A program made the translations under genes and the position numbers. A stretch of 34,720 nucleotides of DNA. It comes from Campylobacteraceae bacterium (GTDB lineage Bacteria; Campylobacterota; Campylobacteria; Campylobacterales; Sulfurovaceae). Under the pieces are notes generated by a model. That model had not been told where the DNA came from. It worked only from the letters and a program-made list of their open reading frames with translations, and did not search any database. The DNA is taken from contig JALSTG010000175.1 of the NCBI GenBank assembly GCA_026983875.1, positions 1 through 34,720 on the forward strand, written 5' to 3'. Positions 30,379 to 34,720 of this stretch are shown piece by piece. The first letter of the stretch is position 1, and each line of letters begins with the position of its first letter.

Positions 30379-30567
30379 TTAGACGGGGATGTCCCGTTCA
30401 TTTCTTCGATTGAGCAAGATGATACCGATGCTTCGAAAGCCGAAAAAGACCATGCGGATAAATTGCCATAGGATACAGTGACGCATGGCCCGCTGAAACT
30501 TACCGGGGATCATCGTGGTTTCGAACTGAGGGTCGGCGAAGTTGAGTTCCTCTTTGATGATGCTCAT
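30379..30567 (-). CDS. Small single-TM 'CILWQ' protein (copy 1)
   Basis: MSIIKEELNFADPQFETTMIPGKFQRAMRHCILWQFIRMVFFGFRSIGIILLNRRNERDIPV; 14 nt downstream of the SQR-like gene; similar to 33326..33502. Confidence 0.75.
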   Translation of the reverse strand: MSIIKEELNFADPQFETTMIPGKFQRAMRHCILWQFIRMVFFGFRSIGIILLNRRNERDIPV

Positions 30568-30581
30568 AGTTTTCTCCTTTC

Positions 30582-32051
30582 TTATTCGGGGATCAAAGTC
30601 CAGCCGGGATGGAGCTTGGCTTTGTAGATGAAGATGTGGTGGAGCAGGTATTTGATCCAGTGTCCGGAGACACCGATCTCTCCATAGGTGCGGCCGGTGT
30701 CCCGGCCGGTGCCCGGATACTTTTCGAAGTCTTTGACGATCGGATAGACGGTAAAGCTGATCGCCTGGCCTGCCTTGAATCCGGTTCCCGCCGAGGCGAC
30801 GCAGATGGCGCCCATTTCGGCCATCGAAGCGCTTCGCAGAGGGCCGTGCTCTCCGTTGAGTATGAGGTTTTTGATGGAGTGGGCGACCGCTTTGCCGATG
30901 GTGCCCGAGGGCATTCCGGTGCGTGGAGGCATCGGCGTGATCATGGTTCCGTTGGGAGATTTACGCGGCTTGGAGATCGGATGGGGAGGCGCAAAGGCGA
31001 TCCCGGCGGCGAAAATGTTGCCGTAGTCGGGGTTGTGGTAGGTCACCGGCCAGTCGCTGGCTTTCCACTCGGCGTAGGGTTTGGCACTGTAGTCGGCATC
31101 GACTTTCATGAAGCCGTTGGGGAGGAAGAGTTTGTCGGTGATCTCTTCGCCGGCTTTGTCGTAGGCTTTGAGTCCCACGCCGCTGAAGGGTGGAATCAGC
31201 ATCGCGAAATCGAACGCCTCTTCTCCTTCGCTACCGTCGATTTGCTCATAGCTGAGCTTGCCCTCCTGGACCTCGTTGACGTGGGCGTCGAGGAGCCAGT
31301 GGATTCCCCGCTCTGCGAAGAGGGATTCGCCCAGGAGTTTGGCGCTCATGACGTAGCCCATGGAGCCCAGGTGCATTCCGTCCATGCCAAAGTCGCCCAG
31401 GTAGGGTTCGTTGGAGATCCACTTGATATCGACCTTGTCCCGTATCCCGGCTTTGCGCGCTTCGTGCTCGATGTTGAGGATATATTCGAAAGCCGCCCCC
31501 TGGCAGGTGCAGGTGCCGTGGCCGGTTCCGACAAGGATTTTCTGCTTTTCGCCTCTTCGGGCTTTGTTGAAGATCTCCTGCAGTTCCCGGGAGGCATGCA
31601 GGGCATGATCGGCGGTGCAGACGCTGACGGTATGCTCACCGATCTGGCTGCCTTTACCCAGGCCCGGCGTCGCGCCGAAGTTGAGTTTGGGTCCGGTGGC
31701 ATTGATCAGATAGTCGTATTCGAGCTCCTCGCTTTGCCCCTCTTTGTTCTGCCCCGTGTATTCGATAGTGATAAACGGTTTTTCGTGTTGCTCGTCTCCT
31801 TCGGGATGAATCGAGAGCGCTTTGGACTGGCGATAGTCGATGCCGGCTTTGGCATAAATAGGAGCTAGAGGGAAGAGCACCTGCTCCTTGTTCATCCGAC
31901 CGACGCCGACCCAGATGTTGGAAGGGATCCAGTTCCAGTGGCTGTTGGGGGTGACGACGATCACTTCGTGGGCGTCCCCCAGCCATTTCTTCAGAAAAGT
32001 AGCCGCCGTATGTCCGGCGACGCCTCCACCCATCACGACGACTCGTGTCAT
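30582..32051 (-). CDS. Sulfide:quinone oxidoreductase-like FAD-dependent oxidoreductase (copy 1)
   Basis: MTRVVVMGGGVAGHTAATFLKKWLGDAHEVIVVTPN (Rossmann), Cys motifs SVCTADHA, GTCTCQGAAFEY, GAICVASAG; C-terminal amphipathic HHIFIYKAKLHPGWTLIPE. Confidence 0.78.
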   Translation of the reverse strand: MTRVVVMGGGVAGHTAATFLKKWLGDAHEVIVVTPNSHWNWIPSNIWVGVGRMNKEQVLFPLAPIYAKAGIDYRQSKALSIHPEGDEQHEKPFITIEYTGQNKEGQSEELEYDYLINATGPKLNFGATPGLGKGSQIGEHTVSVCTADHALHASRELQEIFNKARRGEKQKILVGTGHGTCTCQGAAFEYILNIEHEARKAGIRDKVDIKWISNEPYLGDFGMDGMHLGSMGYVMSAKLLGESLFAERGIHWLLDAHVNEVQEGKLSYEQIDGSEGEEAFDFAMLIPPFSGVGLKAYDKAGEEITDKLFLPNGFMKVDADYSAKPYAEWKASDWPVTYHNPDYGNIFAAGIAFAPPHPISKPRKSPNGTMITPMPPRTGMPSGTIGKAVAHSIKNLILNGEHGPLRSASMAEMGAICVASAGTGFKAGQAISFTVYPIVKDFEKYPGTGRDTGRTYGEIGVSGHWIKYLLHHIFIYKAKLHPGWTLIPE

Positions 32052-32082
32052 TTTTCCCTCCTTCTTTAATGACTTGTAAACA

Positions 32083-32088
32083 ATTATA
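32083..32088 (-). promoter_or_regulatory. Candidate -10 (TATAAT) for SQR-like copy 1
   Basis: Minus strand ggtTATAATtgt, about 32 nt upstream of the ATG at 32051. Confidence 0.45.
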
Positions 32089-32110
32089 ACCATCGATATA
32101 TAAAATAAAA

Positions 32111-32127
32111 GTAAAAAATTATTTACC
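32111..32127. promoter_or_regulatory. Inverted repeat GGTAAA-N6-TTTAC (IR3) upstream of SQR-like copy 1
   Basis: Minus strand GGTAAA-TAATTT-TTTAC, same architecture as IR1 and IR2, 22 nt upstream of the candidate -10. Confidence 0.6.
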
Positions 32128-32229
32128 AAGTAGGGGATATCAAATATCTTTGTTCATAAGGGGATAGAGATGTATTTATATATAGAGTTTCATTGTAAAA
32201 TTGTATTTTAATTATTATGTAAATGACTG

Positions 32230-32329
32230 TGGCGAGAGAGGGAAGGAATCGAACCTTCCGCCGGACGGTCATCCGTCCGGCCAGACGGGTTTGAAGCCCG
32301 CGGCGCCCACCAGGGACGCATCCTCTCCG
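32230..32329 (-). tRNA. selC: tRNA-Sec (anticodon UCA), CCA encoded
   Basis: Minus strand: D-stem GCGTCC/GGGCGC (6 bp), anticodon arm GCGGG-CTTCAAA-CCCGT, long variable arm CCGGACGG-ATGA-CCGTCCGG, T-arm GAAGG-TTCGATT-CCTTC, acceptor CGGAGAGG/CCTCTCTC-G-CCA. Confidence 0.95.
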
Positions 32330-32362: not shown

Positions 32363-33214
32363 TTACGAAAAAATCGGCGAAGCGGGGTTGACCAGCAGCC
32401 AGGCGCCCAGAGCGAGAGCAGCGGCGGCGACGGTGCGCTTGACGATGACGCCGATCTGGTTGCCGATCTGGCAGGAGGAGCATTGACGGTACTTTTTCGC
32501 TTCGTATTGGGCATAGAAGAAATAGATCACCATCAAGACGAGGACCAGAGGAAAGGCGATTTTGTCGAAGGTATAGATTTTGGAGACGGTTCCTGCACTC
32601 CAGTCGAACCATCGGGCCAAAAGGGGCGTCAGCAGGGAAAGGCCCATGAGGATCAGGATTTTGTCGGTGAAACTGACGAAATAGTCTTTGTTGCTGAAGG
32701 TGGGGCAGACATCGCCGGTTTCTGGGACGAGACCCTTGCCGGCCAGGGCTTCGAGAACTTTTTCCCTATAGTGCTTGTCCACTTTATCCAGGGGGGTACC
32801 GCCGAAGAGGTAGTCGATCTTGCGCTGAATCGTCGTCGAGAGCCAGGGATCTTCGACTTTCATGGAGTGGGTGTTGCCCTCCCGATCTTCGTAGATCAGG
32901 CTGATTTTTTCGTAACGAGGGACGGTAAGCTCAATCTCGGGATAGTAGGCGGTGTGCTCTTTGTTGTCGAACATGCCCTCTTTTTTGAGGATACGGGGGT
33001 TGATGAGTTCCAGAAACTCTCCGTCCTCTTGTTTGATCAGGACGATATTGAAGGGGTGGGCGATCTGGATCGCCGCCAGTGCATCAAGGCCGTTGTCTTC
33101 CATCGTATCCTTCATATCCTGGAGCAACCGGGGGAGGCTCTCATCTTTGAAGTCCCGTACGTCGGTACACGCGAGGATCCGTTCATCGGGATAGACTACC
33201 AACTCTTTTACCAT
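32363..33214 (-). CDS. Peptide deformylase-like domain lacking canonical metal ligands, fused to a C-terminal membrane domain
   Basis: PDF-like framework NGLDALAAIQIAHPFNIVLIKQEDGEFLELINPRIL and TIQRKIDYLFGGTPLDKVDKHYREKVLEAL (cf. QHExDHLxG), then three TM segments and RQCSSCQIG. Confidence 0.78.
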   Translation of the reverse strand: MVKELVVYPDERILACTDVRDFKDESLPRLLQDMKDTMEDNGLDALAAIQIAHPFNIVLIKQEDGEFLELINPRILKKEGMFDNKEHTAYYPEIELTVPRYEKISLIYEDREGNTHSMKVEDPWLSTTIQRKIDYLFGGTPLDKVDKHYREKVLEALAGKGLVPETGDVCPTFSNKDYFVSFTDKILILMGLSLLTPLLARWFDWSAGTVSKIYTFDKIAFPLVLVLMVIYFFYAQYEAKKYRQCSSCQIGNQIGVIVKRTVAAAALALGAWLLVNPASPIFS

Positions 33215-33325
33215 AATTGTTCCTTGGTTTTGATGGCTACTCTTCGAAATATTAAAAAGAGGAAATATTTGGAAGAGTTTCCGGAAAGAGAAACAAACGT
33301 TTTGCCTCCGAAGAGGCGAAAAATA

Positions 33326-33502
33326 TTAGCCGTGGCTCTTTCTGACCACGACGAGCATCTTGATGTTGATGACGATAAAGCGGATGATCTGCCAGAGGAT
33401 GCAGGTCCGCAGGAACTTGACGAAGGGGGTGGGCACCATCGTCTCGAAGCTAGGCTCGTAAGGTCGGATGTTTTTCTCGATGGAATGGTCAACGCTTCCC
33501 AT
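33326..33502 (-). CDS. Small single-TM 'CILWQ' protein (copy 2), absent from the supplied ORF track
   Basis: Hand translation: MGSVDHSIEKNIRPYEPSFETMVPTPFVKFLRTCILWQIIRFIVINIKMLVVVRKSHG*; RBS aaaggagaac upstream; similar to 30379..30567. Confidence 0.75.
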   Translation of the reverse strand: MGSVDHSIEKNIRPYEPSFETMVPTPFVKFLRTCILWQIIRFIVINIKMLVVVRKSHG

Positions 33503-33531: not shown

Positions 33532-34720
33532 TTATTCGGGGATCATCGTCCAGCCCGGCTTGAGCTTGGCTTTGTAGATGAACATATGGTGCAGGATGTG
33601 TTTGATCCAGTGACCGGCCAGTCCGATTTCACCGAAAGTGTAGTCCAGATCCCGTCCGAGGCCGGGATACTTCTCGAAGTCGGGGACGACGGGATAGACG
33701 GTCAAGGCTGCCGCCAGACCGTTGGTCAGACTCTTACCGGCAGAGGCGACACAGGCCGCACCCATCTCGGCCATGGAGGCTTCGTGCAGGTGGGCGTTGG
33801 GTCCCTCTTTGATCATATCGACGACGCTGTGGGCGACGGCTTTGCCGATGATACCCGAGGGCATTCCGGTTCTCGGAGGGGTGGGGTTGATGGGGGTGCC
33901 TTTGGGGCTCTTCATCGGCTTAGAGATCAGATGAGGGGGTGCGAAGGCAATTCCCACGGCAAAGATATTTTTATAGGTGGGGTTTTGATAGGTTCGGGGC
34001 CAATCGCTTGCTTTCCACTCCTCATAGGGCTTGGGGGTGTAATCGGCATCGACTTTCAGGAAGCCGTTGGGGGCGAAGATCTTGTCGGTCATATCTTCAC
34101 CGTTTTTATCGTAGGCCTTGAGACCCACACCTGCGAAGGGAGGGATCAGCATGGCGAAGTCGAACTCCATCTCTCCCTCGGTGCCGTCGAGCTGCTCGTA
34201 GTGAAGTTTGCCCTCTTCGACCTTGCTCACATGCGCACCGATGGTCCAGTCGACTCCCCGCTCGACGTAGAGGGACTCGGCGAAGAGTTTGGAGCTGGCG
34301 GCATATCCTCCGCGCTTGAGGTGCAGACCGCCGATTCCAAAGTCGCCGAGGAAGGATTCGTTGGAGATCCAGTGGAAATCGATCATGTCGCGAACTCCGG
34401 CTTTCTGGGCTTCGAATTCGCAGTTGAAGATGTATTCGAAGGCTGCGCCCTGGCAGGTACACATTCCGTGTCCGGTACCGATGACGATCTTCTGCTTCTG
34501 GCCCTGTTTGGCCTTTTCGAAGACCTTGCGCAGTTCGTTATTGGCATGAACCGCATGGTCGGCGGTGCAGACGGAGACGGTATGGGGCCCGAGATTGCCT
34601 TTGCCGTCACCCAGACCGGGGGTGGCGTCGAAGTTGAGTTTGGGGCCCGTGGCGTTGATCAGATAATCATAGCTGATCTCTTCGGTCTGACCCTCTTTGC
34701 CCTGACCGGTGTACTCGATG
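33532..34720 (-). CDS. Sulfide:quinone oxidoreductase-like FAD-dependent oxidoreductase (copy 2), N-terminus beyond window edge
   Basis: Frame open to the window end (IEYTGQGKEGQTEEISYDYLINATGPKLNF...SVCTADHAVHANNELRKVF...GTGHGMCTCQGAAFEYIF); closely similar to copy 1. Confidence 0.8.
   Translation of the reverse strand, partial: IEYTGQGKEGQTEEISYDYLINATGPKLNFDATPGLGDGKGNLGPHTVSVCTADHAVHANNELRKVFEKAKQGQKQKIVIGTGHGMCTCQGAAFEYIFNCEFEAQKAGVRDMIDFHWISNESFLGDFGIGGLHLKRGGYAASSKLFAESLYVERGVDWTIGAHVSKVEEGKLHYEQLDGTEGEMEFDFAMLIPPFAGVGLKAYDKNGEDMTDKIFAPNGFLKVDADYTPKPYEEWKASDWPRTYQNPTYKNIFAVGIAFAPPHLISKPMKSPKGTPINPTPPRTGMPSGIIGKAVAHSVVDMIKEGPNAHLHEASMAEMGAACVASAGKSLTNGLAAALTVYPVVPDFEKYPGLGRDLDYTFGEIGLAGHWIKHILHHMFIYKAKLKPGWTMIPE

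Follow-up and report, generated by a model that had tools for sequence, protein, structure and literature searches.

A conserved, membrane-anchored probable pseudoenzyme of the peptide deformylase family encoded beside SQR in Campylobacterota

The C-terminal helix of the E. coli peptide deformylase (PDF) is a ribosome-binding element (PMC8712518). Among the more divergent members of the family, the type 3 PDFs of Archaea, protists and some bacteria are defined by changes in motifs I and II and are weak or inactive, examples being the accessory PDFs of S. aureus and S. pneumoniae; the main text of the paper which describes them contains no mention of 'transmembrane', 'Campylobacter' or 'sulf' (PMC12690207). 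The protein described here, hereafter the pseudo-PDF, is encoded within a window of 34,720 nucleotides, this being the whole stretch of DNA that was analysed. It resembles Def (PF01327) in fold, in domain length and in the Gln of motif I, the Glu of motif II and the Gln and Asp of motif III. It differs from Def in having neither the metal Cys, the two His, the catalytic Glu nor the basic ribosome-binding helix, in its fusion to a three-helix membrane region carrying a CxxCQ motif, and in its location in an operon with sulfide:quinone oxidoreductase (SQR) instead of the tig-clpP-def context. It shares with type 3 PDFs the character of a degenerate-motif paralogue in which motifs I and II are both altered, as the definition of that class has it, but motif III is also destroyed, and the membrane fusion and the linkage to an SQR operon set it apart from that class as described. 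We are aware of no protein of the PDF fold that acts outside N-terminal processing, nor was one found in the literature searched. Similarly, no paper linking PDF with SQR or describing the pseudo-PDF family was found in the open-access literature.

The features of the locus are presented in Table 1. The open reading frame proposed in a first-pass annotation of this DNA was found where it had been placed, on the minus strand and coding for 283 aa, and the neighbouring SQR-like and CILWQ genes, whose linkage to it is kept across many genera, proved to be real as well. The interval that separates the small gene from the pseudo-PDF gene (33215-33352) contains a terminator-like hairpin (33352-33329) and a second GC-rich hairpin, which possibly tune expression of the third gene. 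The tRNA-Sec gene probably does not belong to the system. With respect to the second SQR locus of the window (30379-32129), SQR-B was 71% identical to the SQR of locus L032, and the same genome therefore holds both a two-gene form, SQR-B with the divergent CILWQ peptide, and a three-gene form which includes the pseudo-PDF.

Table 1. Features of the pseudo-PDF locus and its surroundings (window coordinates)
Feature	Coordinates	Strand	Description
SQR-A gene	33532..34719	-	Operon gene 1; 5' end truncated by contig edge
RTCILWQ-motif small membrane peptide gene	33326..33502	-	Operon gene 2; 58 aa, C-terminal KSHG
Pseudo-PDF membrane protein gene	32363..33214	-	283-aa open reading frame
Pseudo-PDF protein parts			PDF-fold domain, residues 1-150; linker with conserved Cys170; three hydrophobic helices; CSSCQ, residues 245-249
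tRNA-Sec gene	32234..32328	-	Directly downstream of the pseudo-PDF gene, between it and SQR-B
SQR-B gene	30582..32051	-	Full-length SQR-A paralogue; redox Cys conserved
Divergent CILWQ peptide gene	30379..30567	-	62 aa, after SQR-B, E=3.3e-12; no pseudo-PDF gene after it

The PDF-like scaffold reported in the first-pass annotation was recovered by three comparisons, and chance likeness to PDF could be ruled out. Residues 3-148 matched the Pfam family Pep_deformylase (PF01327) with E=1.4e-28 and 99.9 bits (cut-off 22.8), a family matched by all 58 of the 58 pseudo-PDF family members tested, and a phmmer search of the PDB returned many solved PDFs, the best at 1.8e-12. The NCBIfam equivalog model TIGR00079 gave 54.3 bits against a cut-off of 103.95, about half, as would be expected of a relative rather than a true Def. 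An AlphaFold model built from 58 family members had a mean pLDDT of 89.4 and a pTM of 0.56, the latter meaning that the orientation of the PDF domain to the membrane region is not fixed in the model. All 50 Foldseek matches listed for this model were PDFs, the best of them, with E=4e-14, being that of H. pylori, at a TM of 0.86 scaled to target length and an rmsd of 2.2. On the basis of the model and these matches the predicted fold is that of PDF.

The catalytic site was compared between 59 aligned pseudo-PDF members and 17 canonical Campylobacterota PDFs. In the window protein motif I, GxGLAAxQ, reads LDALAAIQ, with loss of the glycines and retention of the Gln; motif II, EGCLS, reads EHTAY, with the Glu kept and Thr in place of Cys; and motif III, QHEIDH, reads QRKIDY, in which the Gln and Asp are kept and both His and the Glu are gone. 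The alignment recovered no metal ligands, in agreement with the earlier proposal that the Cys ligand, the pair of metal His and the catalytic Glu had been lost. Across the family the metal Cys position (C88) was occupied by Thr in 40 members, Ser in 13, Asp in four and Cys in two, and the first metal His (H131) by Arg in 49, Gln in nine and His in one. The catalytic Glu (E132) was found in none of the 59, Lys being present in 45 and Gln, Met or Thr in the rest, while the second metal His (H135) was replaced in every member by Tyr, Phe, Ile, Met, Trp or Leu. All four residues were kept in 17/17 canonical PDFs. The residues which stay in the pseudo-PDFs, Gln50 (56/59) and Glu86, Arg100 and Asp134 (each 59/59), are structural. 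The mean net charge of the C-terminal helix was +0.5 in pseudo-PDFs compared with +8.6 in the 17 canonical relatives, and judged by this charge the basic ribosome-binding helix is lost from the family. The protein is best read as a pseudoenzyme derived from peptide deformylase.

Three hydrophobic helices follow the PDF domain, as had been described. The CSSC motif, which had been placed near the end of the protein, is instead found at residues 245-248, in the loop that joins helix 2 to helix 3. As CxxCQ (C245, C248, Q249) it was invariant at this location in 59/59 pseudo-PDFs, and a further Cys170, in a CPT motif of the linker, was present in 53 and absent in six. No signal peptide was seen by eye in the N-terminal domain, and the CxxC has Lys and Arg on its flanks, in keeping with a loop on the cytoplasmic side. 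By the positive-inside rule, applied to hydropathy and charge only, the PDF domain and the CxxC would both be cytoplasmic. FeoB-associated Cys-rich membrane proteins (PF12669) likewise have a hydrophobic helix beside a Cys pair, but the window protein matched this family only below the cut-off (E=0.1); one other member gave 0.0019.

In a phylogenetic tree with modest support and few outgroups, the pseudo-PDFs formed one clade (UFBoot 78) on a long branch beside the Campylobacterota PDFs (72), a topology which indicates a single origin and a lineage separate from ordinary PDF. Between relatives dN/dS was about 0.06-0.2, with the PDF domain constrained as much as the anchor or more, and by this measure purifying selection acts on the pseudo-PDF. 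Within the Campylobacterota sample, certain families of the Campylobacterales had full-length pseudo-PDFs and others had ordinary PDF alone. Beyond the Campylobacterota the search consisted of one contig scan seeded for close relatives and of plasmids; the plasmid search, performed with the membrane domain, gave one match, in Sulfurovum mangrovi. There the annotation places "peptide deformylase" beside "FAD-dependent oxidoreductase" and "hypothetical protein", and the pseudo-PDF gene (L156, 7521-8336) has been entered as a pair of adjoining 'peptide deformylase' frames, possibly owing to a frameshift or a sequencing error.

A canonical def was looked for elsewhere in the genome, as the first-pass annotation had proposed. 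Most relatives do carry a separate def, but none was present in the window's own assembly, where the only PF01327 match was the pseudo-PDF itself. In the two same-genus genomes examined clpP lies directly upstream of def; in the window's assembly clpP was not detected, comM was found only in part, and the contig holding that part did not contain the tig-clpP-def stretch. Since the gene adjoining def is also missing, the absence of def is likely to be an assembly gap. Replacement of the host's only def by the pseudo-PDF is unlikely, given that clpP was also undetected and that most relatives carry both genes.

At 54 of the 59 loci the pseudo-PDF gene is preceded by a small gene of the same orientation, at a distance of 14-137 nt in 53 and of 251 nt in one, and SQR precedes the small gene at nearly all loci whose contig reaches far enough. 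Genes downstream and further upstream of this operon vary between lineages, so that the linkage of SQR, peptide and pseudo-PDF is not mere inherited synteny. The five stand-alone copies away from SQR (L053, L054, L057, L058 and L060) belong to genomes which hold SQR and the peptide elsewhere. The small peptide is of about 55 aa and forms one long helix; C34, Q38, R41, F42, N46, M49, K55, S56 and H57 were invariant among 54 homologues; P24, R32 and I45 are invariant as well, and the peptide ends in a K-S-H tail. No Pfam family was matched by the window peptide, and a few other members gave weak chance matches only. The partner SQR matched solved SQRs, with E=1e-44 to 3HYV, and the partner SQRs were conserved at 80% on average across the set. 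They align over the flavin fold of the A. aeolicus (3HYV) and A. ferrooxidans (3SZ0) enzymes, and their invariant C146, C184 and C418 correspond by phmmer alignment to the three redox Cys of A. aeolicus SQR, SQR-A having been aligned through its paralogue SQR-B. Unlike those two enzymes, they have an extra conserved Cys182 and are followed by the gene for the membrane peptide. In two genomes of one Campylobacterales family (loci L119 and L126), SQR and the small peptide are followed by thioredoxin-like and thioredoxin-reductase-like genes, so that another CxxC protein occupies the third place. Downstream of the operon at L006, L078, L075, L107 and L108, on the same strand, is a molybdopterin oxidoreductase-like gene with an RRxFL signal and a Cys-rich N-terminus, which is present with or without the pseudo-PDF.

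When homologues were sought in 149 genomes, the pseudo-PDF was found in 69, and only where SQR, the peptide or both were also present. Both partners accompanied it in 67; of the other two genomes, one (G062) had the peptide but no SQR match, the contig with the operon being 7 kb long, and one (G068) had SQR and pseudo-PDF fragments with no peptide match. The association between pseudo-PDF and peptide gave a Fisher p=4.5e-13, calculated on phylogenetically non-independent genomes with no correction for phylogeny. SQR and the peptide occurred without the pseudo-PDF in 39 genomes. SQRs with and without a pseudo-PDF showed only two conservative differences, which rejects an SQR specialised for this partner, and their redox Cys were the same. 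SQR thus does not need the pseudo-PDF, and the simple reading is that the pseudo-PDF depends on SQR and not the reverse.

Family-wide catalytic loss, purifying selection, operon order and co-occurrence all favor the first-pass proposal of a repurposed non-deformylase acting as a membrane module with the SQR-like proteins. A link to SQR function is well supported by the genomics, and the pseudo-PDF probably serves SQR in sulfur-oxidising Campylobacterota. We consider the chances to be about even that it is a third, optional member of a membrane SQR system, alongside SQR and the single-helix peptide of about 55 aa, in which CxxCQ provides a thiol site. Sulfur handling is plausible given two invariant and one near-invariant Cys at the membrane and the SQR partner. 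In such an arrangement the PDF domain would face the cytoplasm and serve in docking or regulation instead of catalysis, CxxCQ and Cys170 would form a thiol site at the cytoplasmic face of the membrane, and this site would take sulfane sulfur, as persulfide or polysulfide, from SQR; alternatively it may be a redox switch or anchor controlling SQR. Residue conservation and partner chemistry are the only grounds on which the CxxC is suggested as sulfur acceptor or redox switch. The more specific proposal, that the PDF fold was recruited as a non-catalytic membrane subunit in a respiratory complex which oxidises sulfide and also contains SQR and the 55-aa peptide, and that CxxCQ receives the sulfane sulfur of SQR on the cytoplasmic side, is put forward only tentatively, and we would sooner doubt it than assert it.

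Other explanations were weighed against the SQR-linked pseudoenzyme. A membrane-tethered, non-hydrolysing PDF fold that had lost catalysis but kept its peptide groove could bind the N-termini of SQR or the peptide, formylated or not, and aid insertion or assembly of these proteins at the membrane, and the retained fold, the motif I Gln, Glu86 and Arg100, the membrane domain and the constant company of SQR and/or the peptide are all compatible with such a biogenesis factor. It is nevertheless unlikely, as the basic ribosome-binding helix and the motif I glycines are gone, the invariant CxxCQ is left unexplained, and 39 genomes have both supposed clients without it. Somewhat less likely again is an electron relay, in which a metal, heme or Fe-S centre held by the CxxC together with Cys170 would carry electrons between SQR and the quinone pool or another acceptor. 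The Cys pair, the third near-invariant Cys at the membrane and the weak likeness to FeoB-associated proteins would fit, but SQR reduces quinone by itself, Cys170 is absent from six members, the window match to the FeoB-associated family is below the cut-off, and with two strictly invariant Cys per chain a four-Cys site would need a dimer or a partner. A rebuilt active site, as deformylase or other hydrolase, seems very improbable: activity is known from some PDFs whose motifs are altered (PMC12690207), and Gln50 and pocket residues are kept, but no metal ligand set is left, relatives carry a canonical def, and the replacements at catalytic positions (R/Q, K/Q/M, Y/F/M) differ between clades, which argues against a new catalytic centre. 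Lastly, motif loss and the relative split into two reading frames might suggest a decaying def duplicate without function; the low dN/dS, the intact state of the gene in many genera and its invariant new residues contradict a pseudogene, and we give this explanation almost no credence.

If the conserved, catalytically dead PDF is indeed tied to SQR, this would be a role for the PDF fold outside N-terminal processing. It would also mean that automatic "peptide deformylase" labels in databases should be corrected for members of this family, and that sulfide oxidation in Campylobacterota of vents and sediments has two components which had gone unrecognised.
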